From Alloyangia mangrovi (GTDB taxonomy: Bacteria > Pseudomonadota > Alphaproteobacteria > Rhodobacterales > Rhodobacteraceae), in contig NZ_NTHN02000051.1 in the NCBI RefSeq assembly GCF_002300555.2, positions 1 to 41,604 of the forward strand: DNA of 41,604 nt, written 5' to 3'. The notes beneath the pieces were generated by a model that searched no databases, was not told where the DNA came from, and worked only from the letters and a program-made list of their open reading frames with translations. Within the stretch, counting starts at the first letter, position 1, and each line of letters begins with the position of its first letter. A program made the position numbers and the translations under genes. Positions 7,943 through 41,348 of the stretch are shown here, piece after piece.

Positions 7943-7949
7943 GCCGCGC

Positions 7950-12714: not shown

Positions 12715-12770
12715 ACGTCTCTCCTCGCGGCGGGGTCCGGCGCGGAGTTTTTCCCCGGTCCGGCAGTCTT

Positions 12771-12805: not shown

Positions 12806-12927
12806 GGGATTTCTGAAGGGATGCTGCGCAGCGGCGTGGGGTAAGGACTTGCCGACCCGCGGGGCCAAAGCGCAGGATTTCGCCCACCGCCGTCCAAGGG
12901 GGCGGCACGTATGGGAGGAATACCGAT

Positions 12928-14172: not shown

Positions 14173-14200
14173 TCGTCCCCGGTCTTCGACCAAACCCAAG

Positions 14201-14226
14201 CGGGCCCGTCTCACGGGGCGGGCCCG
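14201..14226 (+). repeat. Intercistronic hairpin between binding protein and permease genes
   Basis: Two copies of the self-complementary octamer CGGGCCCG (14201-14208 and 14219-14226) form a stable stem in the 69-base gap. There is no T-tract. Such hairpins protect the 3' end of the binding-protein message and lower permease expression in many ABC operons. Confidence 0.65.
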
Positions 14227-14241
14227 TCAAAGGAGAACACC

Positions 14242-16016: not shown

Positions 16017-16021
16017 TCCCC

Positions 16022-24982: not shown

Positions 24983-25022
24983 AGTCGGGAGGATGCCTAC
25001 AGGTGTAGGCATCCTCCCGACT
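24983..25022. repeat. Perfect 19-bp-arm palindrome in the algD leader
   Basis: The arms 24983-25001 and 25004-25022 are exact reverse complements with only GG between them, the longest perfect inverted repeat I see in the window. It ends 65 bases before the algD ATG. No T-tract follows, so it does not look like an ordinary terminator. As RNA it would give a hairpin of 18 bp; as DNA it could be a large operator or cruciform. Together with the preceding terminator-like hairpin it fills the 313-base gap 24775-25087, where no gene and no clear promoter are visible. Confidence 0.85.
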
Positions 25023-25087: not shown

Positions 25088-26407
25088 ATGGCCAGGATCA
25101 GCGTGTTCGGAATAGGCTATGTCGGTGTTGTCGCAGCTGCCTGTCTGGCCAAGGCCGGGCACCAAGTCGTGGCCGTGGACGTGGACCAAGCCAGGATCGA
25201 TGTGATCAACGCTGGGAAGTCGCCCATCGTGGAAAAGGGCCTCGCCGCGCTCGTGGCAGAGACCGTGGACTCGGGCCGGCTGTCGGCGACCCGCTCCGTC
25301 GCCGAGGCCATCTCGGGAACCGAGGCTTCTTTTGTCTGTGTCGGCACGCCCTCCGGTGCCGACGGTGCGGTCGGGCTGATCTACATCGAGCAGGTTTGCA
25401 AGGCGATCGGCGCGGCTCTGGCGGAAAAGGACGGATTTCATTCGGTCATCCTGCGCTCGACGATTGTCCCCGGTACCTGCGAAAGAACCTGCATTCCGCT
25501 GCTTGAGAAATACTCGGGCAAGACCGCGGGAGAGGATTTCGGTGTAGGGTATTACCCGGAATTTCTCCGGGAAAGCACGGCGATAGAAGACTATCATGAT
25601 CCCGGCTTGATCGTATTCGGATCTCTTGATGCACACACCGAGGCGCTTTTGCGCGAGATCAACATGGGAATGGATTGCACGGTTCACTCCGTGGATCTGC
25701 GCACTGCCGAGATGGTGAAATACACGTCGAATGCCTGGCGCGCGGTGAAGGTCTCCTTCGCCAACGAGATTGGGAATATCTCGAAGTCCTGTGGTCTGGA
25801 CGGGCAGACGGTTATGGAAATTCTCTGTTCGGATCACAAGGTTGCCATCTCCCCTTATTTCATGCGCCCCGGATTTGCCTTTGGCGGATCCTGTCTGCCC
25901 AAGGACATCCGGGCCCTGCGCCATCTCGCGATGACAAATGGCGTGACGACCCCGGTTCTGGCGGCGGTGGAGGAGGCGAACGCCGAGCAGATCGCCCGGG
26001 CCGAGACTCTCGTCACCGAGGCCAAGGCCCGCCGCGTCGGGATGGTCGGGGTCAGTTTCAAGGCAGGAACCGACGATCTGCGCGAAAGTCCGCTTGCGGA
26101 ACTCGCCGCAAGGTTGATCCGCTCCGGCGTGTCGGTCGAGATCTACGACCCGTTCGTCTTCGAGGCCTTCGCCGCGGGCAATGCCACGGCCGGACGCGGC
26201 AATGCGACGGTGCCGGATCTGGAGTCCCGGCTGGTCGGCAGCCTCGAAGTGCTGCTCGAAAGGTCCGATGCGATCGTCGTGGGCAACCTCTACAAGGAGG
26301 CGCTGCCCTCGCTTGCCAGGGCCGCCGGCCGGACGCCGATGATCGACCTGACGCGGCTGGACCGCAGCCTGGTCTCGGGCGGCGGCTACAGCGGGATCTG
26401 CTGGTAG
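25088..26407 (+). CDS. algD: GDP-mannose 6-dehydrogenase AlgD
   Basis: The 439-residue cytosolic enzyme oxidises GDP-mannose to GDP-mannuronate with two NAD+, the committed step for alginate. It has the Rossmann motif GIGYVG (8-13), VGTPSGADG, the central YTSNAWRAVKVSFANEIGN helix and catalytic Cys269 in GFAFGGSCLPKD, matching Cys268 of the Pseudomonas enzyme; the length is nearly identical (436 there). The ATG at 25088 has GAGG upstream. It is the first gene of the polycistron and six bases from alg8. All expected residues are present, so precursor synthesis should be intact. A general UDP-glucose dehydrogenase is less likely given the neighbours. Confidence 0.93.
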   Translation: MARISVFGIGYVGVVAAACLAKAGHQVVAVDVDQARIDVINAGKSPIVEKGLAALVAETVDSGRLSATRSVAEAISGTEASFVCVGTPSGADGAVGLIYIEQVCKAIGAALAEKDGFHSVILRSTIVPGTCERTCIPLLEKYSGKTAGEDFGVGYYPEFLRESTAIEDYHDPGLIVFGSLDAHTEALLREINMGMDCTVHSVDLRTAEMVKYTSNAWRAVKVSFANEIGNISKSCGLDGQTVMEILCSDHKVAISPYFMRPGFAFGGSCLPKDIRALRHLAMTNGVTTPVLAAVEEANAEQIARAETLVTEAKARRVGMVGVSFKAGTDDLRESPLAELAARLIRSGVSVEIYDPFVFEAFAAGNATAGRGNATVPDLESRLVGSLEVLLERSDAIVVGNLYKEALPSLARAAGRTPMIDLTRLDRSLVSGGGYSGICW

Positions 26408-26413
26408 CGCGCC

Positions 26414-27916
26414 ATGTTGGGACATGTTGCCTATCTGTCGGTCATCGTCATTCTCGGCGGCGCCGTGACCAGCGACATGCTGGGCCGGGCTGGGGCGCCG
26501 GCGCTGGTGGTCGGAGTCCTGGGTATGTGGCGCTATTCCTGGGCCGCGCTGAATTTTCTGCGCGCGATCTATTTCCGCCGGGTGGTCCATCCGCGCCGCA
26601 AGGCGCGGGCGCAGGCGCGCTTCGCCGACGCGCGGCATCCAGTGCATGCCTTCTTCCTGGTCACCTCCTACGGCATCGATCCCGAGGTCACCATCCAGGT
26701 CTACCGGTCGATCTTCCGCGCCGCCGCGCGGGCGCGTGACGGGGCAACGATCGTCGCTTCGGTGGTCGAGGGGGCAGATGCGCGGCTGATCCGCCAGGTG
26801 TTCGAACAAGCGTTCGGACAGGTGGTTGGACCGGAGGGAGGTGCCGGCGCAGGCGGGTCGCAAGGGGTGCGGCTCATCGTCGATCGCATCCGCGGCACAG
26901 GCAAGCGCGACGCGATGGCGCGCTCGCTCCGGATCATCGCGCGGCACTGCCCGTCGTCGCGGGACATCGTGGTCTTCGTCGATGGCGACTCCTGCGTGCC
27001 CGAGACGCTCGTCGCCGAGGCAGCGCCGTGGTTCACCGACCAAAGCGTCGGAGCGCTGACCACCGACGAGGCGGTCGACATCCCGCGGCCCGGCCTCTTC
27101 CGCGACTGGTTCCGTCTGCGCTTCGACCAGCGGCAGATGATGATGTGCTCGATGGGCCTGTCGAACCGGGTGCTGACGCTGACCGGGCGCATGTCGGTGT
27201 TCCGCGCAGACCTGGCCACCGATCCGGGGTTCATCGAGATGGTGCACGCGGACTTCATAGATCACTGGCGGCTGGGGCGGGTGAACTTCCTCACCGGCGA
27301 CGACAAGTCGACCTGGTTTTGGCTGCTGCGCCAGGGCTACGAGATGATCTACCTGCCGGACGTGCGCTCGGTCTCCGCCGAGAGCCAGCCGCGGTCCGGA
27401 TTCCTCGAGTCCGCCTCGGTGCTGATGGTGCGCTGGTTCGGCAACATGCTGCGGACCAACGGCCGGGCGCTGAAGCTGTCGCCGTGGCGGATCGGCCTGT
27501 TCACCTGGTGGTCGATCCTCGACCAGAGGGTGTCGATCTGGACCACCTTGTCGGGGCCGATCCTGGCGCTGACCGCGGCCTTGGCCTTCGACATGGCGGT
27601 GCTGCCGGCCTATGTCGCCTGGGTCATGCTGACCCGTTACGTCTTCTGCTGGGGGATCGCGGGGTTCCGCGGGCGCCTGGGATTTCCGATCAGCTACGCC
27701 TTCCTCCTCTATTTCAACCAGCTCTTCGGCGCGCTGGTGAAGAGCTTCGTCTTCTTTCGCCTCGACCGGCAGAAATGGACCCGCCAGGCCTCGGCCCAAG
27801 GTGGCGGGCGCGCCGGCCTCGCCGAGCGGCTGGTCGCGGCAGGCTCGCTGCATGTCCATGCCCTGACGATGGGCTGGCTGACGGTGGGCCTGTTCTGGTT
27901 CGCCGGTCTCTTCTGA
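26414..27916 (+). CDS. alg8: Alginate synthase glycosyltransferase Alg8
   Basis: The 500-residue inner-membrane GT2 enzyme polymerises mannuronate from GDP-mannuronate and passes it to the periplasm. It has an N-terminal membrane segment, the cytosolic GT domain with FVDGDS (Asp190, Asp192), TGRMSVFRADLA, the acceptor-site motif TGDDKSTW (294-301) and VRWFGNMLR (339-347) at the position of the RW motif, then C-terminal helices. Length matches Pseudomonas Alg8 (494). It is six bases after algD and 130 bases before alg44, the only sizeable gap inside the cluster; a short GC-rich inverted repeat (CCGGCGC/GCGCCGG) lies there. Confidence 0.92.
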   Translation: MLGHVAYLSVIVILGGAVTSDMLGRAGAPALVVGVLGMWRYSWAALNFLRAIYFRRVVHPRRKARAQARFADARHPVHAFFLVTSYGIDPEVTIQVYRSIFRAAARARDGATIVASVVEGADARLIRQVFEQAFGQVVGPEGGAGAGGSQGVRLIVDRIRGTGKRDAMARSLRIIARHCPSSRDIVVFVDGDSCVPETLVAEAAPWFTDQSVGALTTDEAVDIPRPGLFRDWFRLRFDQRQMMMCSMGLSNRVLTLTGRMSVFRADLATDPGFIEMVHADFIDHWRLGRVNFLTGDDKSTWFWLLRQGYEMIYLPDVRSVSAESQPRSGFLESASVLMVRWFGNMLRTNGRALKLSPWRIGLFTWWSILDQRVSIWTTLSGPILALTAALAFDMAVLPAYVAWVMLTRYVFCWGIAGFRGRLGFPISYAFLLYFNQLFGALVKSFVFFRLDRQKWTRQASAQGGGRAGLAERLVAAGSLHVHALTMGWLTVGLFWFAGLF

Positions 27917-28046
27917 GACCGGTGCCGATGGGTGTGTGATCCGGCGCGGCAGTGTGGCGCCGGCCAGAGCCGAGAAAACCGCGCCCCGGGGCGTGCCCGG
28001 AGACCTGGCCCAGGGGCGACACCCTGGGGTGAGCAAGGACCGAACC

Positions 28047-29157
28047 ATGGCCACGAGCGAACCGACCCACAACCTGCCCACCGGCTTTGCCCATGACGGC
28101 GAGCACCCGCTGGTGCAGATGCCCTTCACCGTGCTGATCGGCACCCGCCAACTGCGGGGCGAGAGCCTGTCTCTGACCCGCGCCCATGCCGGCGGGCTGA
28201 TGCCGCGCAGCAGCGAGGAGCGGGTGACCCCCATGACCCTGCGCTTCGATCTCGAGGGGTTCTCGGTCAGCCTCTATCTCGATGCGCGGATCACGGCGGA
28301 CCCGTCCGAGGACGGTCGCGTGGTTCTGCATTTCACCGATCCCACCGGCGCGCATCTGCCGCCGCTGCGCTACCTCCTCAACAGCTACATCGCCGGTGAC
28401 GTGGTCTCGGTCGGGGGGGATGCTGGGCTACACCGGCCCGGTCTCGTTCAAGTCCAAGCCCGCCGCGGTGGTGCAGCCGGCGCTGCACCGGGTGGCGGGG
28501 CTGGGGCGGCGGGGGTTGGTGATGGGGTTGACCGCCGCGCTGGCGATCGTCGCGGCGGGCATCGTGCACGAGCGGCTGGTCTACGCCTACGAGCCGCGCC
28601 CGGTCATCCTCACCGAGGGTGGCCAGACCATGCGCGCCACCGCGGCGGGTCAGCTCTCCTACGTCGATCCCGACGCGCAGTTCGGCGAGGTGGTCTATTC
28701 GATCCTCGCCAATTCCGGCGACCTGCTGAGCGTGAAGATGCCCTGCGACTGCCGCATCGCCCCGCTCGAGGCCTTTGCCAGCGGCGCGACGGTGCTGCCG
28801 GGCACGCCGCTGCTCGACCTGCTGCAAAGCGAGGGCACGCTGACCGCCAGCACCGAGATCACCTTCGAGGGCAGCGCCCGCGCACTGGCGGGCGACGGCG
28901 CCCAGCTTGTGCTGCAGGATGGCAGGGTGGTGCCGGTGACGCTGGAGCTGCTGCCGGCGCCGGGCGCCGGGGCGGCGCTGCAACCGGTGCGGATCAACCT
29001 CCCCGGGAGTGCTGACCTCGAGCGCGGCAGCTCCGCCCGCCTGCGCTTCAAACGCCAGCTCCTGCCCGCACCGCTCGCCGCGGGATTGGCGGTGATCGGC
29101 CGGGGCCTGTCGATGGGTGGCGGAGCCAAGGCGGAGGAGAACCCCGATGCGCGATGA
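28047..29157 (+). CDS. alg44: Alg44-like synthase subunit with degenerate PilZ domain (frameshifted)
   Basis: The corrected protein (369 residues; Pseudomonas Alg44 389) has an N-terminal cytosolic PilZ-like beta region (1-125), one membrane helix (about 155-173) and a periplasmic HlyD-like domain. The frame shifts at seven G, 28413-28419; removing one joins DVVSVGG to MLGYTGPVSFKSKP. In Alg44 the PilZ domain binds c-di-GMP through RxxxR and D/NxSxxG and switches on Alg8. Here the first site reads EHPLVQMPFTV, with no arginine, and the second region reads GESLSLTRAHAGG, not the motif. Activation by c-di-GMP is therefore doubtful. AAGGA precedes the ATG at 28047. The 3' end overlaps the longer candidate start of algA. 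Confidence 0.82.
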
Positions 29158-29230
29158 GGGACCCCTGCCGGATGTCCTCCCGACCGGCCCGGCGGCTGAT
29201 GCAGCGCGCAGGGAAGAAAGGGACAAGGAC

Positions 29231-30634
29231 ATGTCACGGGTCGTTCCCGTCGTCCTCTGCGGGGGCATCGGCGCACGGCTCTGGCCGATGTCTCGGAGCC
29301 AGAGCCCCAAGCAGTTCCACCCCGTCGCCGATGCGGGCTCGCTGACTTTCTTCCAGAGCACGGTCCAGCGGCACCGCGCCGGCTGCTACGCCGATCCGGT
29401 CGTGGTCACCGCGACACCACATGTGCAGACCGTCCTGCGCCAGCTCGCCGGGCTGCAATGCGAGGGGCGGCTGATCGTCGAGCCCTTCGCGCGCAACACC
29501 GGCCCGGCGGTTCTCGCCGCCGCGCTGGAAATCGCGGCAGAAGATCCCGACCGGCTGATGCTCGTGCTGCCTTCGGACCACGTGATCTCGGGCGACTTCG
29601 ACAGCATCGTTGCCGACGCGCGCAAGGCGGCCGAAGACGGGCGGATCGTGCTTTTCGGGATCACCCCGGCCTACCCGGAAACGGGCTATGGCTACATCGT
29701 CGACGGTGGCATCTTCCGGCATAACGCGGCGCTGCGGCGGGTGGCGAAATTCGTCGAGAAACCTCCGAGGGAGCAGGCCGAGGCGCTGATTACCTCCGGC
29801 AGCGCCTATTGGGCGTCGGGGATATCGCTCTTTGCGGCGCGCACGATCATCGACGAGTTCCGCAGGATCGATCCGAAGACCTTCGCGGCGGTGAGCCTTG
29901 CCTTCGAGAACGGCATCCGCAAGGCCGGACAGGTGCATCTCGGCGGCGAGGCCTTCCGCCATGCGCGCGCCGAACCGACCGAACGCATCATCTTCGAGCA
30001 TTCCCCGCATGTGATCCTCGCCCCGGCGGATATCACCTGGAGCGACGTGGGCTCGTGGACCTCGGTGCATGGCGTCGGCCAGCAAGACGAGAAGGGCAAC
30101 GTCTTTCATGGCGACGTGATCGCCACCGACACCGAGAACGCGCTGGTCCGCGCCGGGGATCGCCTGGTGGCACTGGTCGGCGTTCCCGAGGTCATCGTGA
30201 TCGACACGCCCGACGCGCTTCTGGTGACCCGCAGGGGGCGCTGCCAGGACGTGCAGAAGGTGGTCGAGCTGCTGCGCCGCAGCCAGCGCCTCGAAGCCAG
30301 CCGCCACAAGCGGCGCGAGCATGAGTGGGGCCGGAGCATGAGCCTGTTGCGCTCGGGCGGCCTCGACATGGTGATGCTGACGATCAACTCGGGCACTTCG
30401 GTCAACATCGACCCCGAACCCGGGCGCAAGCTGATCGTCACGCGCGGGACGATCGAGATGTTCGATGGGCCATGGCGGCGCAGCGTCGGGCAGGGCGAGC
30501 ACGTCACGCTCGACAACCTCCAGCCCTGCCGGTTGGTGAACGCCGGCGCGCAGGAGGCGGAGGCGCTGCTGATGACCCTGCGGCCGACCTTGATGCTCGC
30601 GGCGCAGGCAGGGGTGTCGCACCATGTCTCCTGA
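29231..30634 (+). CDS. algA: Mannose-1-phosphate guanylyltransferase AlgA, isomerase domain degenerate
   Basis: The 467-residue protein makes GDP-mannose from mannose-1-phosphate. The nucleotidyltransferase half is well conserved: VVLCGGIGARLWPMSRSQSP with KQF (8-29), LPSDHVI, FVEKP (174-178) and SDVGSW (271-276); YWNSG of the family reads YWASG. AlgA is normally bifunctional, with a C-terminal cupin phosphomannose isomerase whose metal site reads like QMHHHRAEHW plus a later His. Here that stretch is SVNIDPEPGRKLIV (390-403) and the later site QPCRL, with no metal ligands, so the isomerase is probably dead. The ATG at 29231 fits the family start with AAGG upstream; ATG 29147 with GGAGGAG is a possible longer start. 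It overlaps algG by 11 bases. Confidence 0.9.
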   Translation: MSRVVPVVLCGGIGARLWPMSRSQSPKQFHPVADAGSLTFFQSTVQRHRAGCYADPVVVTATPHVQTVLRQLAGLQCEGRLIVEPFARNTGPAVLAAALEIAAEDPDRLMLVLPSDHVISGDFDSIVADARKAAEDGRIVLFGITPAYPETGYGYIVDGGIFRHNAALRRVAKFVEKPPREQAEALITSGSAYWASGISLFAARTIIDEFRRIDPKTFAAVSLAFENGIRKAGQVHLGGEAFRHARAEPTERIIFEHSPHVILAPADITWSDVGSWTSVHGVGQQDEKGNVFHGDVIATDTENALVRAGDRLVALVGVPEVIVIDTPDALLVTRRGRCQDVQKVVELLRRSQRLEASRHKRREHEWGRSMSLLRSGGLDMVMLTINSGTSVNIDPEPGRKLIVTRGTIEMFDGPWRRSVGQGEHVTLDNLQPCRLVNAGAQEAEALLMTLRPTLMLAAQAGVSHHVS

Positions 30635-32090
30635 CCGCTCCCCGGTCGCGGCGCTGCTGCTGGCGCTGTGCATCCTGCTGACGGGTCCGGCGGCCGCGCA
30701 GGAGGTGCCGGGAGATGAGGCGGAGCGGATCGAGGCGCGCTACATGGGCCTTCGGGCACAACTGAGCGACCTGCAGGATCCGCGCGACCTGCACTCCCGC
30801 CTCGGCGTCGATCTCTCTCCGTCGCCCGGCGGCCCGCAGGCCAAGGTCGAATTGTTCGACCTGCGGCTGGCGCTGGCGCAGATGGCGCTGGTGGTGGGCA
30901 CCAACGACCAGCTCACCGTGCTGCGGGCGCAGCCGCAGGGGCGGCTTGTGGCGATTTCGCTGCGCGAGGGCAGCATCGACGCGGACAGGCTGCTCTCCGA
31001 GGCGCGCCGGCTCGACCCGGCGGCAGTGGTCGAGGGAGCCATGGCCTACCCGGTGCTGGTGCAACAGGGGGCAACGCTGCGCATCGAGGATGGGGCGGTG
31101 CTGGCGCTCGACCGCGGTGCCGGCGCCTTCGTGGTGAACCTCGGCCGGCTCGAGCTGGCGGCGGGCGGCATCGTCGCCCGCGGCGCGGTCAATGCCAGCG
31201 CCCATGAGTTTGCCCCCTTCGTGGTTACCGCCGGCACCGGGGTCCTGCAGGCAGAGGCGGCGCTCTTCTCGGGGCTTGGCTTCGGGCGGACTCCCAGCTT
31301 TTCCGGCCTCGCGGTGATCGTCAGCGGCCTCTACCGCCCGAGCGAGCCCTCGGTGCTGCGCGCCTCGCTTCTGCGCGATCTCAACGCGGTGCGCTTCGTG
31401 ATGACCAAGGACAGCGCGATCTCGGACAACATCTTCGTCGATGCGCGCAGCACGGCGCTGGAATTGCGCGGAACGTCGGGAGCGCGGCTTTCCGGCAATC
31501 TCTTTGTCGATGGGGCCGGCGATGCGATCCGGCTCAGCGACGGCGCGCGCGCAACGCGCCTCGAAAGGACCGAGATATACCGCCCGGCGCTGAACGGGAT
31601 CCGCCTGCGGGGCGCCAGCAACGGCACGCTGGTCCGCGACACGCTGGTCTGGCAGGCGGGCAAGAGCGCCCTGTCGGTCAGCCGGTCGGATTGCACCTCG
31701 GTCGAGGGGCTGCGGGCCATCGCGTCAGGCCAGAAGGGGCTGGCGCTGCGCCAGGCGCGCGCCTCGCGCATCACCGGCAGCACGATCGCGGGTTCGGGCA
31801 GTTCCGGTCTCTACGTCACGCAGCAGCCCGAAGGCACCGTGCTCGATCTCGAGGGCAACCGCTTTTCCGCCAACCGTGTGGGGATCGACACCGCCGCCCC
31901 GGCGCGGCTGGTGCTGAGCGCGAATGATTTCTCGGACCAGTTTCCCCGCTTCCTGGACGGCGACGTGCAGGACGGCAGCGCCGCGCTGATGGCCGACCTG
32001 TCGGGGCGACAACCGCTGGTCCTGGCCGCCGGGGGCACCGACGCGCGCTTCCTGCCGCCGCCGGACTGCGCGGCATCGGACGAGGGGTGA
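30624..32090 (+). CDS. algG: AlgG-like periplasmic right-handed beta-helix protein without DPHD motif
   Basis: The 488-residue protein has a Sec signal peptide (cut near AAAQ, residue 26), a helical N-terminal part and from about 150 a right-handed parallel beta-helix with CASH-type repeats (ISDNIFVDARSTALELRG, ARLSGNLFVDGAGDAIRLS, ASNGTLVRDTLVWQAGKSA). Position and fold match AlgG, the mannuronan C5-epimerase that also protects polymer in the periplasm. The catalytic DPHD motif of AlgG is not present anywhere; the likely corresponding stretch reads NAVRFVMTKDSAISDN (254-269). I infer a structural or polymer-binding role without epimerase activity. The start overlaps algA by 11 bases, and algI follows after six. 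Confidence 0.75.
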   Translation: MSPDRSPVAALLLALCILLTGPAAAQEVPGDEAERIEARYMGLRAQLSDLQDPRDLHSRLGVDLSPSPGGPQAKVELFDLRLALAQMALVVGTNDQLTVLRAQPQGRLVAISLREGSIDADRLLSEARRLDPAAVVEGAMAYPVLVQQGATLRIEDGAVLALDRGAGAFVVNLGRLELAAGGIVARGAVNASAHEFAPFVVTAGTGVLQAEAALFSGLGFGRTPSFSGLAVIVSGLYRPSEPSVLRASLLRDLNAVRFVMTKDSAISDNIFVDARSTALELRGTSGARLSGNLFVDGAGDAIRLSDGARATRLERTEIYRPALNGIRLRGASNGTLVRDTLVWQAGKSALSVSRSDCTSVEGLRAIASGQKGLALRQARASRITGSTIAGSGSSGLYVTQQPEGTVLDLEGNRFSANRVGIDTAAPARLVLSANDFSDQFPRFLDGDVQDGSAALMADLSGRQPLVLAAGGTDARFLPPPDCAASDEG

Positions 32091-32096
32091 CCGGCC

Positions 32097-33554
32097 ATGG
32101 TATTTTCCTCCGAGACCTTCCTGTTCCTCTTCCTGCCGCTCTTCCTCGTGGCTTATTTCGCGGTGCCCTGGCGCTTCAAGTCGCTGGTGATCCTCGCCGG
32201 ATCCTATCTCTTCTACGCCTGGTGGCGGCTGGACTTCCTCGGGCTTCTTTTTGCAACCACGCTCTTTGCCTATCTCGTCGGGCAGAGGATCGCGCGGCAT
32301 CGCGACACGGCGCGGGGCAGGCTCTGGCTCGCCGTGGGGATGATCGGCTGCCTCGGCGTGCTGGGGGTGTTCAAGTACCTGAACTTCTTCATCGACAGCT
32401 TTGCCACGCTGCTCGGCACCGACGCCGCGGGGGTGGGCGTGCATTGGCGGCTGATCCTGCCGATCGGCATTTCCTTCTACATTTTCCAGGCGCTCAGCTA
32501 CCTGATCGACGTCTGGAGGGGCGACGCGCGGGCGGATGCGAAATTCGTCGATTTCGCCGCCTTCATCGCGCTTTTCCCGCAGCTCATCGCCGGGCCGATC
32601 CTGCGCTACAAAGACCTCGAGGACCAGTTTCGCAGCCGGACCCATTCGCTCGATCTCTTTTCCGAGGGCATGGCGCGCTTTCTCGTCGGCCTCGGCAAGA
32701 AGGTGCTGCTGGCCGATGCGGTGGCGCCGCTCGCGGATCTCGCGTTCAACGGCAGCGGCGAGGTCGGCCTGCTGCTCGCCTGGGCGGGGGCAGGGGCCTA
32801 CATGCTGCAGCTCTACTTCGACTTCTCGGGCTATTCCGACATGGCGATCGGGCTCGGCAAGATGATGGGCTTCCACTTCCCCGAGAACTTCCTTTTTCCC
32901 TACATCAGCCGCTCGATCACCGAGTTCTGGCGGCGATGGCACATTTCGCTTTCGACCTGGCTGCGCGACTACCTCTACATCTCGCTCGGGGGCAACCGCC
33001 TTGGCCGGGCGAGGACCTACGCCAACCTGATGGCGGTCATGGTGCTGGGCGGACTGTGGCACGGGGCGAACTGGACCTTCGTGCTCTGGGGGCTCTGGCA
33101 CGGCTGCCTGCTGGCGCTGGAGCGCGCCACCGGCCACGACCGCCGCGCGGCGGGACTGGTCTGGTCGCTGCCGCTCACCCTGCTGCTCGTGTTGCTTGGC
33201 TGGGTCATGTTCCGGGCCGCGAACGTGGGGCAGGGCTTCGAAATCTACGCCGCGATGCTGGGGGCGAACGGGCTCTGGGGCGATCCGGCCCTGTGGCACG
33301 CGCTGACCCGTGAAAGCCTTGCCCTCACCGGCATCGCCGCGCTGGTCGCCTGGATGGAGCCCCGCCTTGCCGAACGCCGCGAGGGGCAGGCGGCCCTCGG
33401 CGGGCAGCCCCTGCAACCGGGCGGGGGTATGCGGGTGATCGGCGGCGTCGCGGCGCAGGCGCTGACCGCGACCCTGCTGCTCGGCCTCGGGGTTCTCACC
33501 GTGCTGAAGCTTTCCGAGCAGAGCTTCTCTCCCTTTCTCTACTTCCAGTTCTGA
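32097..33554 (+). CDS. algI: Alginate O-acetyltransferase AlgI (MBOAT)
   Basis: The 485-residue membrane-bound O-acyltransferase carries acetyl groups across the inner membrane for polymer acetylation. It has about ten hydrophobic helices, the MBOAT core FDFSGYSDMAIGLGKMMG and PYISRSITEFWRRWHISLS, with His282 in RWHISLS and the catalytic-type His322 in GLWHGANWTFVLWG, the same number as in Pseudomonas AlgI. The start MVFSSETFLFLFLPLFL is the standard family start. It is tightly packed between algG and algJ, and its active-site residues are all in place. Confidence 0.94.
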   Translation: MVFSSETFLFLFLPLFLVAYFAVPWRFKSLVILAGSYLFYAWWRLDFLGLLFATTLFAYLVGQRIARHRDTARGRLWLAVGMIGCLGVLGVFKYLNFFIDSFATLLGTDAAGVGVHWRLILPIGISFYIFQALSYLIDVWRGDARADAKFVDFAAFIALFPQLIAGPILRYKDLEDQFRSRTHSLDLFSEGMARFLVGLGKKVLLADAVAPLADLAFNGSGEVGLLLAWAGAGAYMLQLYFDFSGYSDMAIGLGKMMGFHFPENFLFPYISRSITEFWRRWHISLSTWLRDYLYISLGGNRLGRARTYANLMAVMVLGGLWHGANWTFVLWGLWHGCLLALERATGHDRRAAGLVWSLPLTLLLVLLGWVMFRAANVGQGFEIYAAMLGANGLWGDPALWHALTRESLALTGIAALVAWMEPRLAERREGQAALGGQPLQPGGGMRVIGGVAAQALTATLLLGLGVLTVLKLSEQSFSPFLYFQF

Positions 33555-33562
33555 GGCCCGCC

Positions 33563-34691
33563 ATGTCGTTCCCCCACTCGGTCAATTTCGCGCTGAAGCT
33601 GGTCGTGCCCGTGGCTTTCTTCGGCTACGCGGCGGCGGCGAACATGGCGCTGGTTCTGGGACCCGCGACCGCCCTGCCGCAGCACGCGGGGCTCGGGCGG
33701 CATGGAATGACGCAGGAGATCGACACGCTTTACCGCGAGGGCATGCCGCACCGGGACCTGGCGATCCGTCTCATCGGCGCGGCCCGCTACCTGCTGCTGA
33801 ACGAGGGCCGCCCCGGGGTCGCGGTCGGGGCAGGCGGCGTGCTGTTCACCGACGAAGAGCTGCGCCAGCCCGCGGCGGCGGGTGCCGCCTATGCCGCCGC
33901 GCTGGACGAGATCGTGCGCAGCGCCGAGGCCCTGCGCGCGAGCGGCACCGAGCTCATCGTCGTCCCGGTTCCGGCCAAGCTCGACCTTCTGGCCGCGCAG
34001 GGCCCCGACCCGGCTCTCTCGGAAGAGCTGCATCGCTTCTACGACAGGTTCCGCGCCGACCTCACAGATCGGGAAATCCCAACGGTCGACAGCCGGTCCG
34101 CGCTGGCGGCACTGGCGGCGCCCTTCCTCGCCACCGACACCCATTGGACGCCGGGGGGGCGCCCGGGCCGTGGCGGTGCGGATCGCGGCGCAACCGGGGC
34201 TGACCGGCAGCGCGCAGTTCACACAGGTGCCGGGGGCGGAGGTCCGCTTCACCGGCGATCTCGTGTCCTATGTCACCTCCGGCGAACTGGCGCCGCTTGT
34301 CGGCCTCTCTGCCGAACGCGTGACCCCCTACGAGGCCGTCTCCATACCCTCGGGGCAGGAGGCCGCGCTGGACCTCTTCGGCGAAGCGGGCGCGGGCGAG
34401 GTGGTCGATCTCGTGGGCACTTCCTATTCCGCCAACCCCAACTGGAGCTTTGCCGAGGCGCTGAAGCTGGAGCTGGGCCGCGACGTGATCAACTACGCAA
34501 CCGAGGGGCAGGGACCCTTCGTGCCGATGCGGGACTACCTGCAAAAGCGCGCTCCCGAGACCGCTGCAACCACGGTCCTGTGGGAAATTCCGCTGCGCTA
34601 CCTGCTCGACCCCGAGCTGCCCGAGACGCTGGCAGCGGAGGCGGGCCCCGAGGCGCAGTCCCTTGAGTTGGCCGAGGAGGGCGGGACATGA
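33563..34691 (+). CDS. algJ: Alginate O-acetylation protein AlgJ (SGNH-like, frameshifted)
   Basis: The corrected 375-residue protein has an N-terminal signal anchor (about 8-32) and a periplasmic SGNH-like acetylesterase/transferase domain. The catalytic residues are Asp192 and His194 in TDTHWTPGGA and Ser287 in VGTSYSANPNWSF, as in Pseudomonas AlgJ. The frame breaks in seven G at 34153-34159, directly inside the DxHWTP motif region; six G read DTHWTPGGARAVAVR, the expected sequence. It passes acetyl groups from AlgI toward AlgX or the polymer. The stop overlaps the next gene by four bases, so translation is coupled. Confidence 0.88.
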
Positions 34692-35521
34692 CGCGCCTGC
34701 TGCACGTCCTGCCATTGCCGCTGCGCCAGCTTGGCCATCTCGCGCTCTTTGCCCTTCTGCTGCCGGCGACGGTGGCCCGGGCAGCGGAGGGCAGCCTGAA
34801 CACCGGCGTCGCGGTCTATCGCGGTGCGGCGGCGACCCAGGTCGACGTCACCATGGTGCGGGGCATCACCCGCTCCGACCAGTTACCGCCGCATCTACTG
34901 GCGGTCCGCAAGCGCCTGTCACGCGGCGCCTACGTCCGGTTCGCCCAGCTGCGCGATCTCGCGGATCACCGCGACGGCAATGCGGCCTTCCAGCTCGCAA
35001 ACCGGCTTGACCTCGACGCGCGCCCCGACCTTGCCGCGGACATCGCCCATTACTACGCAATCGCCGCGGTGACCGGCAGCGGTGGCGCCATCTTCGGCTT
35101 TATCGCGGCGCTGGACCGGGTGGACCCCGGCACCACTTCCCCGGGCCGTCTCGAGGTGCTGAAGAATGCGCTGCTCGCCTATGCCATCGCCGGCAGTTCC
35201 GCCGCCACCGAGGCGCTGATCCGCCACCACGTGAGCGGCACCCCCTTCGGCCCGATGCAGGACGAGCTCGAGGCGCTGGCCCGCCGCGAGGGCGCGCCGG
35301 GGGCCGATGCCGCCGCGCTGCAGCTCGCCAGCGAGATCCTGCAGGACAAGGCCGCCACAGCCGGCGACCTGCGCCGCGCCCGGGGGTTTCTCGAGGCGGC
35401 CGGCCGGGGCAGCAGCCTGCGCCAGCGGTTGATCGTGCAGAACCTAGGCCCGGTGGTTGATACCCGTCTCTCCGAGGCGGTCTCGCTGGCCTTGCTGACG
35501 CTAAGGGAGGGACCCCGATGA
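34688..35521 (+). CDS. Unrecognised periplasmic helical-repeat protein of the alginate-type cluster
   Basis: I do not recognise a named family. The 277-residue protein has a signal peptide (leucine-rich stretch ending VARAAEG, about residue 37) and then an almost wholly helical region with Sel1/TPR-like pieces such as NAAFQLANRLDLDARPDLAA and AHYYAIAAVTGSGGAIFGFI. Both ends overlap neighbours by four bases (algJ before, algX after), so it is firmly part of the operon. Pseudomonas operons have no gene at this place. It could be a second scaffold next to the AlgK-like protein, or replace part of the export complex made by AlgK-AlgE. Confidence 0.8.
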   Translation: MTRLLHVLPLPLRQLGHLALFALLLPATVARAAEGSLNTGVAVYRGAAATQVDVTMVRGITRSDQLPPHLLAVRKRLSRGAYVRFAQLRDLADHRDGNAAFQLANRLDLDARPDLAADIAHYYAIAAVTGSGGAIFGFIAALDRVDPGTTSPGRLEVLKNALLAYAIAGSSAATEALIRHHVSGTPFGPMQDELEALARREGAPGADAAALQLASEILQDKAATAGDLRRARGFLEAAGRGSSLRQRLIVQNLGPVVDTRLSEAVSLALLTLREGPR

Positions 35522-36867
35522 GCGGCCTGTCCAAAGGGGTGCTGCTTGCCACGGCGCTGATCGCCGCCACCGGCATCCCCGCGCTCGCGGGCGAGAGCGC
35601 CTATGGCTGTACGGGGCTCGAACGCAACCGCGACCTGCCCAGCATCGAGGGGCGGGACGGGGTGTTCTTCCGCATCAATGCCGACCTCCGCATGAACCAC
35701 CCCTTCTCGCAAGGTGTCGTCGACGGTCTGGCGCAACTGTCGCGGGCGCTGGAGCGCCGGGGGACCACGCTGATCTTCGTGGCGATCCCGACCAAGAGCG
35801 TGTCGATGCCGGACTACCTGCCCCCAGAGGCGGCGCTCTACGGGTTCGATCTGGAGGTCGCCACCGAGGTGCATCTGGACATCCAGCGCCGGCTCGCTGC
35901 GGCAGGCGTGGTCACTACGGACATCCGAGAGGCGCTTCTGAACGCCGAGCCGGGGCAGCTTCCGTTCTTCGGCACCGATTTCCACTGGTCTGCTTATGGC
36001 GCGGACCTCGGCGCCCGCGCCATCGCCGATGTGATACGCGCGCAGCCGGCCTATTCCGCCCTCGCCAAGACCGAGCACGAGACGGTCAGGATCGGCCATG
36101 AACCCTCCTTCTCGGGGATGCGGCGCATCCTGCAGGCGCTCTGTACCGAGACCCTGCCGGAGCCGGAGACCGACACATTCGAGACCACAGTGGCGCAGCT
36201 CGACCTCGTGCCCGAAAAGGATGTGGGCGGCATGCTCGATCTTTTCGGAACCGAGACGGAGACCCTCGATATCGCGCTCGTCGGCACCTCCTTTTCGGAC
36301 TCACCGATCAACAACTTCCCGGGGTTCATCGCGCAGCACAGCGACCTCGAGGTTGTCAATTACGCGATCACCGGGGGCAACCAGTTCGGCGCGATCACCT
36401 CTTATCTTACCTCCGAGGAGTTCGAGGAGGCGCCGCCGGTGTTCCTCGTCTGGGAGAACCCGATCTACAACAACCTCGCGCAATACGGGGACCAGCCGAT
36501 GCGCGAGCTGATCGCGGCGGCCAGCGGGAACTGTACCACGCGGATCGCCTCGGAGGTCTCGCAGGACCGTAGGTTGCTGCACGCCGATCTCGGCGGGCTG
36601 GGGCTCGGGCCGGCGGACACGCTGTTTCTGGACACCAACGGATCGACCGCGCTGGAGGTCGAGTTCCGCTTCCGCTCGGCGGCGGGATCGGAGCGCAAGA
36701 AGGTCCTGCACCGCAGCGAGCGCATGCGTCGCTCTGGCCGGTTCTACATGCCGCTCTCCGGGCTCTGGCCCGAGGGTGCGGACGGGATCGAGATATCCCT
36801 GTCCGCGCCGCTCGGCGGCGATCCCGCCCTATATACCTGCACGACCCCCTCGGAGGACAAATCATGA
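35518..36867 (+). CDS. algX: Alginate O-acetyltransferase AlgX
   Basis: The 449-residue periplasmic protein has a signal peptide (cut near residue 24), an SGNH-like domain with Asp154 and His156 in GTDFHWSAYG and Ser258 in VGTSFSDSP, and a C-terminal carbohydrate-binding-like beta domain (about 340-440, FLDTNGSTALEVEFRF). This matches AlgX (474 residues in Pseudomonas; Asp174, His176, Ser269), the enzyme that places acetyl groups on the polymer. Its overall pattern resembles AlgJ, but the C-terminal binding domain identifies AlgX. Catalytic residues are intact. It overlaps both neighbours by four bases. Confidence 0.9.
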   Translation: MSGLSKGVLLATALIAATGIPALAGESAYGCTGLERNRDLPSIEGRDGVFFRINADLRMNHPFSQGVVDGLAQLSRALERRGTTLIFVAIPTKSVSMPDYLPPEAALYGFDLEVATEVHLDIQRRLAAAGVVTTDIREALLNAEPGQLPFFGTDFHWSAYGADLGARAIADVIRAQPAYSALAKTEHETVRIGHEPSFSGMRRILQALCTETLPEPETDTFETTVAQLDLVPEKDVGGMLDLFGTETETLDIALVGTSFSDSPINNFPGFIAQHSDLEVVNYAITGGNQFGAITSYLTSEEFEEAPPVFLVWENPIYNNLAQYGDQPMRELIAAASGNCTTRIASEVSQDRRLLHADLGGLGLGPADTLFLDTNGSTALEVEFRFRSAAGSERKKVLHRSERMRRSGRFYMPLSGLWPEGADGIEISLSAPLGGDPALYTCTTPSEDKS

Positions 36868-37514
36868 TCACGCGCCGTCTTTTCCTTGCCGGAGGGAGCG
36901 CCGCCGCTCTCTTCGCCTCGATTGCCAGCATTGCGCCCAGTGCCGCGCGGTCCGGGGATGAAGGTCTCTACCGGGATGTGTTCGACCCGGACTCGAGCTT
37001 CATCCGCATCCTCGCGCCGGGCCAGAGCTTTGCCGCGGTGGATGGCAAGACGATCCGGGATTTCACCTCGGGCCTCTCGGGCTACGTGAACGTCATGCCG
37101 GGGCCGATCACCGTCTCCTTCTCGGCAAGCTCGATCGACTTCGTCGTGGCCCCCAGCTCGCATTACACCGTGGTTGTTCCTGCGCAGGGCGAGCCTCTGG
37201 TGACGCAGGACATGCTCGAGATGAGCCCGGCGAAATGCGATGTGACCGTGTTCAACCTGACGCCTCAGCCGGCGCTGAGCCTCTACGTGCCGCTGGCCAA
37301 GGCGGTGGCGATCGACAATCTCGAGCCGGTGGAATCCCGGTCGGTCGCACTGAAGGCCCCGCTGACGCTCGACTTGGAGCTGCGCGACGGATCGCAGGCG
37401 CTTGCCACCATCGCGGCGGTCGAGCTCAAGCGCAAGACCGGGGTGACCATCGTGCTGACCGAGCTCGACGGCACCTATTCCGCCGCCGCGGTGCCGAATT
37501 TCTACATTCGCTGA
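36864..37514 (+). CDS. algF: Alginate O-acetylation adaptor AlgF
   Basis: The 216-residue periplasmic protein matches AlgF, a non-enzymatic adaptor of the acetylation complex. GLYRDVFDPDSSFIRILAPG (about 34-53) corresponds to the family's LYxPxxPxxSSFVRVL opening, followed by two small beta domains. The signal peptide begins MITRRLFLAGGSAAAL, with the twin arginine followed by LFL, so Tat export is possible though a Sec signal is equally likely. The ATG overlaps the algX stop by four bases and algK follows after 16. Confidence 0.88.
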   Translation: MITRRLFLAGGSAAALFASIASIAPSAARSGDEGLYRDVFDPDSSFIRILAPGQSFAAVDGKTIRDFTSGLSGYVNVMPGPITVSFSASSIDFVVAPSSHYTVVVPAQGEPLVTQDMLEMSPAKCDVTVFNLTPQPALSLYVPLAKAVAIDNLEPVESRSVALKAPLTLDLELRDGSQALATIAAVELKRKTGVTIVLTELDGTYSAAAVPNFYIR

Positions 37515-37530
37515 GAGACGGAGCGCGCCC

Positions 37531-40309
37531 ATGCCCCCGATGCAGACCGCCGCCGCCGCGATGCGATGCCTTGCCCTGGCGCTCGGCATGGCCCTCGGGC
37601 TGCTTGGCGGCCCGTCGTGGGGAAGGACGCTCGACCTCGAATTCCGGCCACCGGATCTCGACATCGACCCGATCTGCGTCGCCCGCCCCCCCGGACGAGG
37701 AGACAACCGCCTTCTGGGGGGCGTGGAACGCCGAGGCGCTGCCCGACTGGGAAACCGCGATGGTGCGCCGCGACCTCTCGCGGCTCATGCAGATTGACCC
37801 GGCGCGCTGGTTCGACACGGCGATGGCCATGATCGCACGCCTCGAGGAACGCGACCCGAGGTTCCTGGGGCAGAACGCGCTTCTGGCCCGGATCACGGTG
37901 ATGGAGGCGGCCGGGCGCTTCGAGGAGCTGATGAGGAGCGGCATGGTCCCGCGGCTCGCGGGTTATGGCGACACGCTCTCGGCGGGCAGCCGTACGGCAT
38001 TGGCGCGCTTCTACCGCGACGGCATCGGCGTTGCGCGCGACGTGGCGCAGGCGGATGCACTGCTGATCTCGGCGGGCTATGCGGGCAACGCCGATGCGTT
38101 GCTGACGCTCTCGTCGATGGTGCTCGCGGGCGAGGCGCCCGCGGCCTGGGACGTGCCGCTCGAACTGGCGGTGACCATGGCCTTCGGTGCCCTGGTGGGC
38201 GAGCTGAACACCACCATCTGCGACCGCACCGCCCGCATCGCCCGCGAGTACCATTCGGGCGAGATCGTCACCAAGTCGCCGCAGCTTGCGCATGACTGGT
38301 TCCGCTTCACCGCCGATCTCGGCGATGCCCACGCGGCCTGGAAGGTGGTCGAGTACCACCTTGAGGCCGAGGGCTTCGCGAAATCGAACGATCTGTTGCT
38401 GAAATACCTGCGGCAGGCTGCCGACGCTGGGCTGCCCTACGCAGAGATCGAACTGGGCCGGCAATACGAGAGCGGGGCGCTGCTGCCGCACGACCTGAAC
38501 CAGGCGCTCGAGCTCTACGAGCGCGCCGCGGTCGATGGCGCGCGGGCGGGGCTGACACGGGTGGCGCTCTTCCTGGAGTTGCACGCCGCGGACTTTCCCG
38601 ACAAGCGGCCGCGCCGGCTGGAAGCCTTGCGCGCGCTGGTCGCGCTCGAGGATGCCCCGGGTTGGGCCTTCACCCGCCTCGCCACGGCGGTGCTCAAGGA
38701 CAAGGGACGCTGGGCCGGGGCTGCTGAGGCGAGGGTGCTGCTGGAAGAGGCGGTGAAACACGAGGATCTCGACGGGACGGTGAGCCTTGCCGAGCTGCTT
38801 CTGGCACAGCCCGAAAGCCCCGGCGACTTCGACCGGGCGGTGGATTTGCTGTCGCGCGCGGTCTCGGTCAGCGGCGGGGTTACGCCGCTCAAGGTGCTGT
38901 CCTCGGCCTTTGCCTGCCGGGCGCCGGACGCGCCGCGCATGCAGGAGGCGGCCTATTGGGCCGAGCTGGAACGCGCAACCGACACCGCCAATCTCGACCT
39001 GCCCGGCGCGAAACTGGTGTCGCTCTCGCCACGGAGCGATCCGCTGGTCTTCGCGGTGTTGCAGTCCCACGCGCTTTACGGCCGCCCGTCCGCGGTGGCG
39101 GGCTGGTTGAAGCTGCTCGAGAAAGACCCGGCGACAACCGGCGAGATGCGCGCCTTCTGGCTGGAATATTCCAAGCGCTACGGCCTGGTGAGCGATGCGC
39201 TGATGAAGCTGGATCTCGAGCTGGACGGCCGCCGCGATGCGATGCTGGATGAGGCCCGGCAGCTGCGCAACGTCTATGCCAGGTCAGGTCCGTCAACGGC
39301 GCTCATGCTCGCGGAGATGCTGCTGGGCGGCGCGCCGGGCGATGCTCCGCTGCAGCGGATGGAAGAGCAGGCCGAGGCCCTCGAGCTGCTCGAGGGCCCG
39401 GCGGAGCAGGGCATGGGCCGGGCGATGCAGCTCATGGCCGACCATGCCCGCACCGCGGTGGAGCGTCAGGAGATCTTCGAGCGCTACCGCGAGGTGATCG
39501 CAAGGGACGGGGATTTCGAGGCCATTCTCTTTGCCGTGCCCTTCGTTGCGCCCGGCGCGGAGCGGACGCGCTACCTCGCGCGGGCCAAGGGGATCATGAC
39601 CTGCGACTACAAGAGCGCTATCTCGATGGCCAACGTGTCGATCCTGACCGGCGAGCGCGAGACGGCGGAGCATTGGATCGAGGTGGCCACGCAGTTGCTC
39701 GGCGACAACGCCTGGGCGATGACGGACCTTGCCAAAACCGTGCTGGCGCTCGGCAAGCCGGGGGCCCTGCCTGCGGCGGTGGCACTGCTGACCCGGGCGC
39801 GGGCGATGGGCGATCAGACCGCGAGCCGGACCCTCTTCGAGCTGGCCATCGCCAGCGGCACCGACAGCTACGATCCGCAGAAGGCAGCCGAAATGCTCAC
39901 CGAGGCCTCGGCCAACGCCGAGTACGAACTGCTGGCAGGGTTTCTGGCGCGGCTAAGGCGCGCGGATGATCGGGTTCGGGTGTTTATCGGGCAGATGCTC
40001 GACATGTCAGACCTCTATCGCAGGGCGGCCGAAAGCGGCGATCTGATCTCGATGCGCAGCTACGGTCTCTACCTGCAGGACACCGCCATATCTCCGGCGC
40101 AGCTTGCCGAGGCGAGCGACTGGCTGCGCCGCGCTGCCGAGGGCGGGGACACTGCGGCGATGTCCGAATACGGCGAGGCGTTGGCCTTCGGGATCGGCGT
40201 GGCTCCGAACCCGGATCAGGCGATCCACTGGCTCGAACGCGCCGCGGCGCAGGGCAACCAGCGCGCGGCGGGGATCACCCGTCTTGTGCGGATGAGCGGG
40301 GGAGGCTGA
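37531..40309 (+). CDS. algK: Very large AlgK-like Sel1/TPR scaffold protein (frameshifted)
   Basis: The corrected protein has about 925 residues, nearly twice Pseudomonas AlgK (475). A hydrophobic export signal (about 8-30) ends in GGPSWGRT; there is no lipobox cysteine, whereas AlgK is an outer-membrane lipoprotein. Sel1-like repeats are plain: ARFYRDGIGVARDVAQADAL, ELGRQYESGALLPHDLNQAL and YGEALAFGIGVAPNPDQAIH. The frame breaks in seven C at 37686-37692; six join ICVARPP to DEETTAFWGAWNAE. AlgK organises the periplasmic complex and helps place the porin AlgE, whose gene is not in this window. The symbol is by position and repeat type; it could be a fusion or extension with extra partners. 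Confidence 0.72.
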
Positions 40310-40310
40310 G

Positions 40311-41348
40311 ATGCGCCGGATCTCTCTGCTCCCCACGGTGCCATTTCTGTTTCTCTCCGCAGTCCCGGCGCTGGCCGAAGGCTGCCCCGGCGCGCCCGAG
40401 CCGGTTGTGACCCTCGACTACGGCAGCCGTTACGCCGAGGACGACCCGTCGCGCTCCTCCATCGACACGGAAAGCAACGCGGCGGTGAACCGGGCGCTGA
40501 GACCGATCGACGCCTTCATCCGGGACCTCGTGGCGCAGTCCAACGCGGTGCTGGCAGAAGGGGAGGACAGCGCACAACAGGCCGACTGCGTGCTCTCGCG
40601 CATTGCCGCTTGGGCCGAGGCCGACGCGCTCTCGGACCTCGGCAGCTTCACCGCGCGGCTGTCGGTGGGGGCCCGGCTGGCGGGGATCGCGGAAAGCTAC
40701 CGGCAGGTCCGGCCCCTTGCCACCGACCTCAAGGCCGCCGCCGGGATCGAGGATTGGCTGACTCGGCGCAGCGCCGAGCAGATCGACTTCTGGGAGAAGG
40801 AGGCGACCTCGGGCGCCCGCACCGGCAACCTGCGGGCCTGGGCGGCGCTGGCGGTGCTGCTGACCGGCGAGGTCACCCGCAACGACATGCAGATCGGTTG
40901 GGCCTCGGCCTCGGCGGTGCGGATCCTCTGCACGGCGCGGCCCGACGGCAGCCTGCCGCAGGAAACCAAGCGCGGTGGCTACGGGCTGCACTACCAGTTC
41001 CACGCGATCGCGCCGCTAGTCACCATCGCGGCGCATCTCGACCGTCTGGGCCAGCCGATCACCGAGAGCTGCGACGCGGCCCTCGAGCGCGCCGTGGGCT
41101 ACGCGCTGTCGGACTACGCGGCGAAGGGGGCGCTCACCGAGGCCTATTCCGGCAAGCCCCAGTCCTACTTCGACGGCACGGAAACCCTGCAGCCGCACGA
41201 GCTTGCATGGCTCGTGGCTTACCGCGCGCTGTTCCCGCAGTCCGACATCGCCAGCCCGCTTCCCAGAAACGAGCCGCTAATCAACTCCAAGCTCGGAGGC
41301 GACCAGCGGCTGCTCTGGAAGGACGGCGGCCAAGGTGAGCTGCCGTGA
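40311..41348 (+). CDS. algL: AlgL-like PL5 alginate lyase homologue, catalytic histidine lost
   Basis: The 345-residue periplasmic protein (signal peptide cut near residue 22) has the PL5 alpha/alpha toroid. Conserved landmarks are GSRYAEDDPSRSSID (38-52) and DGSLPQETKRGGYGLHYQFH (212-231), keeping Arg221 and Tyr228 at the active-site positions. The family motif NNHSYW, which holds the catalytic Asn-His pair, reads GNLRAW (172-177): the Asn remains but His is Leu174. Lys of the GSKY motif is Arg40. I infer a lyase with little or no activity, perhaps kept as a structural or binding part of the complex. It begins one base after algK and is the last gene of the cluster in the window. Confidence 0.82.
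   Translation: MRRISLLPTVPFLFLSAVPALAEGCPGAPEPVVTLDYGSRYAEDDPSRSSIDTESNAAVNRALRPIDAFIRDLVAQSNAVLAEGEDSAQQADCVLSRIAAWAEADALSDLGSFTARLSVGARLAGIAESYRQVRPLATDLKAAAGIEDWLTRRSAEQIDFWEKEATSGARTGNLRAWAALAVLLTGEVTRNDMQIGWASASAVRILCTARPDGSLPQETKRGGYGLHYQFHAIAPLVTIAAHLDRLGQPITESCDAALERAVGYALSDYAAKGALTEAYSGKPQSYFDGTETLQPHELAWLVAYRALFPQSDIASPLPRNEPLINSKLGGDQRLLWKDGGQGELP

Follow-up and report, generated by a model that had tools for sequence, protein, structure and literature searches.

An alginate-type operon of Alloyangia mangrovi with an intact acetylation machinery and without the canonical epimerase and Alg44 c-di-GMP motifs

Introduction

Among bacteria, the chemistry of alginate, a (1-4)-linked mannuronate/guluronate polymer, has been established for Pseudomonas and Azotobacter, whose biosynthetic operon has the gene order algD-8-44-K-E-G-X-L-I-J-F-A. 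Here we analyse a related polyuronate operon of Alloyangia mangrovi, which spans positions 25088-41348 of contig NZ_NTHN02000051.1 (our C116). The window analysed is the whole of this 41,604-nucleotide contig, one of 169 in a genome of 5.53 Mb. The operon is a new form of alginate biosynthesis, common to the Rhodobacterales and Rhizobiales loci compared, and it probably directs synthesis of an O-acetylated poly-β-D-mannuronate without C5-epimerisation and without the cyclic di-GMP (c-di-GMP) switch of Alg44.

An earlier survey reported atypical alginate operons in which outer-membrane transport loci or some of the acetylation components are missing (Bundalovic-Torma et al. 2020; PMC7112194, available passages), and no AlgE-family gene was found here either. 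Those passages make no mention of the residue losses described below, of a link between AlgX and AlgI, or of an alginate operon of this lineage by name. The residue changes were not found described for Rhodobacterales or Rhizobiales in the literature searched, most subscription papers lying outside its reach.

Results

Relationship to the Pseudomonas and Azotobacter operons

From position 24048 the genes, all on the forward strand, are arranged in the order luxR-type, algD, alg8, alg44, manC/algA, algG-like, algI, algJ, a gene for a 277-residue protein, algX, algF, algK-like and algL-like, the LuxR-type gene standing directly upstream of the operon. As in Pseudomonas and Azotobacter, AlgD, Alg8, Alg44, AlgK-like, AlgG-like, AlgX, AlgL-like, AlgI, AlgJ, AlgF and ManC/AlgA are encoded in one cluster. 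These include the synthase-dependent alginate core of GDP-mannose dehydrogenase, Alg8-type polymerase and Alg44 copolymerase, and the acetylation residues are kept. Three of four clusters fetched from Pseudomonadaceae genomes follow the canonical order for the genes seen, whereas the order here differs. Also unlike those systems, no AlgE-family gene was found, the 277-residue protein is extra, the AlgK-like protein has roughly double the length and no lipobox by eye, the epimerase, c-di-GMP and isomerase sites are lost, and the lyase pocket is rebuilt. With the four Pseudomonadaceae operons as reference rows, clade-derived profiles scored 147-166 bits against their AlgG, 133-145 against AlgL, 59-90 against Alg44 and up to 416 against ManC/AlgA. 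As the clade profiles recognise each reference protein, the comparison is between homologues, and it supports the view, taken in a sequence-only reading of the window, that this is a sister system to Pseudomonas alginate rather than a copy of it.

The relatives compared were 80 of 163, and comprise Rhodobacterales and Rhizobiales loci. AlgI is encoded in 41 (type A, the type of the window) and absent from 34 (type B); the other five are cut off before the type can be read. AlgD is missing from the fetched stretches of two of the 80, ManC from six, Alg44 from one and the AlgG-like protein from five, partly because of contig ends. The closest named relative is Alloyangia pacifica KcN7-14 (L026), with 87% identity in Alg8; an AlgL homologue under the name Salipiger pacificus is 98% identical. 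For Alg44, AlgJ and the LuxR-type protein, the row labelled REF is L026 and not the window, so that L026 is counted twice there. A further set of 19 carrier genomes, which may share species with some named loci, represents 19 of 20 matched; the remaining one, G010, had a weak match beside AlgI/AlgJ only and was excluded.

Epimerase, c-di-GMP and isomerase sites

The AlgG-like protein (30624-32090) was recognised as a β-helix protein by domain matches, profile and alignment. The epimerase site of AlgG includes a DPHD motif, Tyr314 and an arginine that shields the carboxylate (PMC4444821, in the part available). DPHD is missing from all 76 AlgG-like rows, of which 75 extend to the site, and its position aligns to an ELR stretch in the window. 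The carboxylate-shielding arginine, which we take to be number 345, is also missing from the window, and the catalytic arginine position is Arg in 4 of 75 readable rows. No other AlgG-family protein was matched in the A. mangrovi genome at E 1e-3. The absence of DPHD, together with the failure to recognise another epimerase in the genome, supports the earlier prediction of a polymer made without epimerisation. Two AlgG-like rows (L065 and L059) have D-x-H-[DE] elsewhere in the protein.

Alg44 (28047-29157) was identified from its translation and its relatives, and has a PilZ-like N-terminus. The RxxxR and [DN]xSxxG motifs are absent from the window translation and from all 80 clade rows. Similarity to the solved Alg44 is weak with a single sequence (E 0.04) and clear with a profile. 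One serine is invariant (80/80) and could stand at S46 in an alternative alignment register; the variability of D44 and S46 given below follows one MAFFT register, and in the other D44 is mostly G, S or R, never D. Alg44 lacks the switch motif, and loss of c-di-GMP binding is predicted, as had been proposed.

In ManC/AlgA (29231-30634), assigned by domain matches and alignment, the guanylyltransferase domain is intact, the Arg, Glu, Lys and Pro checked being kept in 75/75 rows. The QMHHHRAEH metal site of the C-terminal isomerase is absent in the window, and its Glu occurs in 0/73 readable clade rows. The protein scores 343 bits against TIGR01479, below the cut-off of 373 for the bifunctional mannose-1-phosphate guanylyltransferase/mannose-6-phosphate isomerase, of which it has the first domain. 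Elsewhere in the genome a second ManC matches the isomerase domain with 167 bits and keeps the Q-x-H-x-H-x3-E-H metal residues, so loss of the site in the operon protein need not mean that the isomerase step is lost. No type I isomerase was matched in the genome.

The lost-site columns of AlgG, Alg44 and ManC lie at the 49th-96th percentile of variability, as variable as the bulk or more so. These sites are gone and drifting, and their columns are unconstrained. Alignment with the Pseudomonadaceae proteins thus confirms that the Alg44, AlgA and AlgG motifs, and His202 of AlgL, are absent as first noticed.

To place these changes, we refer to an Alg8 tree made by a quick method, in which 82 clade rows (42 type A, 35 type B and five untyped) split from five canonical rows with a Shimodaira-Hasegawa-like approximate likelihood ratio (SH-aLRT) of 99. 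The canonical rows are the four Pseudomonadaceae and G431, from the same class and another family. The G431 cluster (L162/L163) resembles the clade in having AlgD, Alg8, Alg44, AlgG, AlgL-like and AlgK-like proteins and the clade's C-terminal AlgG motif, but keeps DPHD, Arg345, RxxxR, DxSxxG and NNH; no AlgI, AlgJ, AlgF or AlgX profile match was found in its fetched stretch. Because G431 keeps the canonical residues within the same class, the clade state would most simply have been derived once. The same losses recur in up to 80 Rhodobacterales and Rhizobiales loci. The sequence-only reading had counted four separate losses in one operon; the changes are instead common to the clade compared and fall on one stem of the Alg8 tree.

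A distant alginate-like cluster, G506 (L165), has an AlgG without DPHD, an AlgL that keeps NNH and a PF13372 gene about 7 kb away. Its AlgG is possibly an independent loss of the epimerase.

The acetylation machinery

All known features of the acetylation relay are present in the window. AlgI (32097-33554), a membrane-bound O-acyltransferase (MBOAT) assigned by domain match and alignment, has His322, which is found in 41/41 readable rows. AlgJ (33563-34691) is SGNH-like, with PF16822 in both pieces of a gene that changes frame at position 34153; the D-x-H motif and the GTSYS serine are present in the window translations, and the triad in 41/41 readable rows. AlgX (35518-36867), likewise placed by domain match and alignment, has an intact D154/H156/S258 triad, and AlgF (36864-37514) was identified by PF11182 and by a match to 6czt (4.6e-5). 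In the relay proposed for Pseudomonas aeruginosa, AlgI hands acetate to AlgJ, from which, with AlgF as a bridge, it reaches AlgX (PMC10641220, seen in part).

The AlgX triad is intact in all 39 type A rows that hold AlgX, whereas only one of the 34 type B loci, the type without AlgI, AlgJ and AlgF, retains it. Of the 33 lost triads, 30 belong to one large group, 23 of them reading D-R-E or D-R-D and seven having other letters, and three, reading D-L-R, to Martelella. Type B arises within type A at least twice, in the large Rhodobacterales group and in Martelella, with locus L053 as a third, odd case. Among the carrier genomes, AlgF was found in 13/13 with type A (nine above the Pfam cut-off) and in 0/6 with type B only, a distribution that agrees with the proposed relay. 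That the donor side and the AlgX triad were lost together, twice, is good evidence that the relay works in type A, to which the window belongs. The expectation that acetylation is intact and under selection is therefore borne out by the AlgX counts.

Acetylating and non-acetylating copies occur together in some genomes, namely Jannaschia pagri AI_62 (L039 and L054), G146 and G065, of which the last two may overlap with named genomes. Locus L053, from a Cognatishimia metagenome-assembled genome (about 8500-17000), has Alg8 followed directly by AlgX, with AlgF present and no matches to Alg44, ManC, AlgG-like, AlgI or AlgJ; this shortened operon is either real or a misassembly.

The AlgL-like protein

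The AlgL-like protein (40311-41348; PF05426, 2.1e-22) belongs to polysaccharide lyase family 5 (PL5) and has a remodelled pocket (R40, N173, L174, R175, W177, R221, Y228, Q229 and H231). Compared with Pseudomonas the changes are K66R, H202L, S203R, H257Q and Y259H, and N201, W205, R249 and Y256 are kept; three of the four PL5 residues Asn201, His202, Arg249 and Tyr256 are thus retained, His202 being Leu. In a set of 34 rows, in which those from the 80 loci are of the type without AlgI, the counts were 33/34 for K66R, 33/33 for N201 and H202L, 32/33 for S203R, 32/32 for W205, and 31/31 readable rows each for R249, Y256, H257Q and Y259H. Among 15 clade members in another sample, of which 12 are of the acetylating type (the window plus 11 others), Leu202 occurs in 15/15 and His259 in 14/15, with Tyr in L139. 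The two samples overlap in part and both include the window. In the best 120 of at least 474 AlgL homologues, drawn from 8000 candidates scored, GNLR, W177, R221, Y228 and Q229 are invariant and R40 and H231 are at least 90% conserved, against a mean column identity of 48%. Unlike the drifting AlgG, Alg44 and ManC sites, the pocket is therefore altered yet near-invariant.

The accessible part of PMC8829089 assigns roles to four residues of P. aeruginosa AlgL: neutralisation of the intermediate to H202, that of the carboxylate to R249, substrate binding to Y259 and, as a proposal, the acid/base role to Y256. The same source reports that H202A has no measurable activity in vitro and wild-type-like growth, that R249A and Y256F are not tolerated in vivo, and that K66A retains only about 1% efficiency. 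By alignment, the clade proteins keep the residues that matter in vivo and have a histidine where Tyr259 was. For these reasons we do not accept loss of lyase function as demonstrated, and the earlier statement that the polymer is made without lyase trimming is not upheld by a pocket that is near-invariant and has both the acid/base Tyr and the Arg.

We see an even chance that the AlgL-like protein remains active as a PL5 lyase whose centre has been rebuilt, so that Tyr256 and Arg249 would work and the histidine at position 259 would partly replace His202. Such an enzyme would trim or clear polymer as in Pseudomonas, refining the proposal of an acetylated mannuronate and contradicting only the claim of no lyase. 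Near-invariance of the pocket in all three samples argues for it, as does the normal growth of the P. aeruginosa H202A mutant beside the intolerance of R249A and Y256F. The same mutant showed no detectable activity in the assay, however, and K66A was severely impaired (PMC8829089, as above); the nearness of the new histidine is suggested by alignment, and L139 has Tyr there. Somewhat less probable is a protein that has lost catalysis and is retained in the periplasmic complex to bind polymer. This would account for Leu in place of His202 in every readable member (33/33, 15/15 and 120/120, in partly overlapping samples), but offers no obvious need for the Tyr/Arg pair that is kept in every readable row.

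Regulation

The regulator gene (24048-24774) encodes a LuxR/NarL-type protein with a receiver-like N-terminus; it changes frame at position 24507, and GerE is matched (1.4e-18) in the second frame. A LuxR-type gene lies 5' of algD in 35 of the 80 loci, comprising 32 of the 41 type A loci, three untyped loci and none of the 34 type B loci. Among 38 rows, 90% or more retain the Asp-Pro of the receiver-like part. Regulators of the LuxR family that sense c-di-GMP have a W[FLM][TS]R-type motif. We rejected c-di-GMP sensing through such a motif, as [WY][FLM][TS]R occurs in 0/38 rows. We infer that control has shifted from c-di-GMP on Alg44 to transcription.

Export

The AlgK-like protein (37531-40309) has about 920 residues, a signal-like start and Sel1/tetratricopeptide (TPR) repeats, identified by domain and PDB matches; its gene changes frame at position 37686. 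Of the TPR protein and pore that serve export, only the first was found. The AlgE family (PF13372) was matched in 0/19 carrier genomes, that of A. mangrovi included, and not in G431, with positive results in 3/3 Pseudomonadaceae and in G506. A porin fused to the AlgK-like protein or encoded downstream was rejected, because the protein matches only Sel1/TPR repeat entries in PDB and no 3' gene is widely common. No gene 3' of algL is common to more than five of 14 other carrier loci (one of which, L122, has only about 1 kb there). As these downstream genes vary, the operon seems to end at algL-like; in the window the contig stops 256 bases past that gene.

The 277-residue protein, encoded between AlgJ and AlgX (34688-35521), has a signal-like start and is conserved in the clade, being matched in 67/80 loci. 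The window member matches no Pfam family at 0.01, and no profile match was found in the four Pseudomonadaceae operons. Wza-type exporters are encoded at five places in the genome; nothing ties them to the operon.

Nature of the polymer

AlgD (25088-26407) has Cys269 and matches the Pseudomonas GDP-mannose dehydrogenase (1mfz) over its full length with 429 bits, the best UDP-glucose dehydrogenase reaching 236 bits. Alg8 (26414-27916), a family 2 polymerase (Pfam GT2, 2.6e-27), carries DGD and TGDD, and is the only Alg8 match in the genome at E 1e-10. Translation and alignment thus recovered all the residues that had been listed as present in AlgD, Alg8, AlgI, AlgJ and AlgX.

It is unlikely that the product is some other uronic-acid or mixed polymer and not mannuronan. 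The AlgL pocket and AlgG changed together, as a new polymer would permit, and type A loci L037 and L039 have no AlgD or ManC match in the fetched stretch, so that their nucleotide sugar would come from genes elsewhere or be a different sugar. In the window, however, AlgD is by far closest to GDP-mannose dehydrogenase, and ManC is encoded in the same operon.

The favoured reading, an O-acetylated poly-β-D-mannuronate without epimerisation, has to be weighed against these two loci and several further observations. The absence of AlgE leaves export unexplained. The AlgL-like protein may be active, in which case the polymer could be trimmed. L053, alone in breaking the AlgX rule, keeps the triad without a detected AlgI. 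A type of epimerase that escapes the searches is possible: the DNA pattern GxDPH[DE] gave six matches against one in a reversed control. These six were rejected as alternative epimerases, their in-frame reading frames being judged by eye not to be β-helices. The names Yangia and Alloyangia presumably overlap. The exopolysaccharide of Yangia sp. ND199 is about 96% glucose, fructose and galactose, with acidic sugars minor, and a table in the same paper, seen in part, places a gene of a related strain under O-acetylation and alginate biosynthesis (PMC7892980).

Frame changes and flanking sequence

Four genes of the operon region change frame at runs of seven G or C: luxR (a G run at 24507), alg44 (G, 28413), algJ (G, 34153) and algK-like (C, 37686). 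In the assembly, Asp192 and His194 of AlgJ are consequently read in one frame and its serine in another. In L026, luxR (orthologue at 7686-8393), alg44 and algJ are each in one frame; its fetched locus ends within the algK-like gene, for which open frames of more than 900 residues occur in seven other relatives.

The coding frame was scored on both sides of G/C runs in 30 stretches covering 441 kb of the 5.53 Mb genome, the window included and the 2,500-base contig L119 and the overlap piece L110 excluded. Of 20 scorable runs with at least seven bases, 19 shift frame, all by the same step and 16 of the 19 outside the window. Shifts were found at 0/9 runs of six, 10/232 runs of five and 32/1113 runs of four. 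In 258 kb from relatives, scored with the codon table of the A. mangrovi genome, the single scorable run of seven is unshifted and 1/11 runs of six is shifted. Long runs in the window lie at 20333, 24507, 28413, 34153 and 37686, those at 24507 and 37686 being seen by eye, outside the scored shifts. Since the shifts occur at long G/C runs across the genome sample, they are a property of the assembly, which points to a systematic fault that will yield false pseudogenes in this genome. Decay of the operon, suggested by four genes that change frame, is thus highly improbable given the 16 like shifts elsewhere and the intact frames of L026, and phase variation aimed at this operon was rejected on the same grounds.

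A perfect 19-bp inverted repeat with a 2-base loop (24983-25022, without strand) lies 65 bases 5' of the algD ATG. The repeat sequence is absent 5' of algD in the relatives scanned and is not repeated in the sampled genome. A conserved hairpin was rejected, as the repeats at other loci, where there are any, differ from it and measure 9-12 bp. The flank at 1-23414 encodes an aldehyde dehydrogenase, a BCCT transporter, a β-keto acid cleavage enzyme, an ABC importer, an FAD oxidoreductase and a LysR regulator, which show no visible tie to the operon.

Discussion

We propose that the ManC and AlgD homologues would supply GDP-mannuronate, and that Alg8 with Alg44 would polymerise the chain. AlgI, AlgJ, AlgF and AlgX, in which the known relay features are kept, would pass acetyl groups to the polymer, and the product would be O-acetylated poly-β-D-mannuronate, with no guluronate from this operon. 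The AlgG-like protein may act as a periplasmic scaffold, and the AlgL-like protein may still bind, and perhaps cleave, polymer in the periplasm. The chain would leave through an outer-membrane channel outside the AlgE family. Synthesis would be set by transcription, through the LuxR-type regulator, and not by c-di-GMP on Alg44.

More tentatively, the clade may represent an old alphaproteobacterial branch of alginate biosynthesis without epimerase, Alg44 c-di-GMP control or AlgE. Its PL5 enzyme would carry the catalytic histidine at a new position and be adapted to mannuronan, acetylated or pure, and the chain would be exported by a different outer-membrane route; AlgX would have become non-catalytic in parallel where acetylation was lost.

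The carriers include many marine and some soil and plant-associated genera. In them, the same core without its editing and switch sites pulls apart functions that are combined in Pseudomonas: scaffold and enzyme in AlgG, binder and lyase in AlgL, and copolymerase and c-di-GMP sensor in Alg44. Types A and B provide a natural experiment on acetylation, because the AlgX triad is kept with AlgI and lost without it. If the product is indeed an acetylated polymannuronate, the operon would yield a defined homopolymer of practical use.

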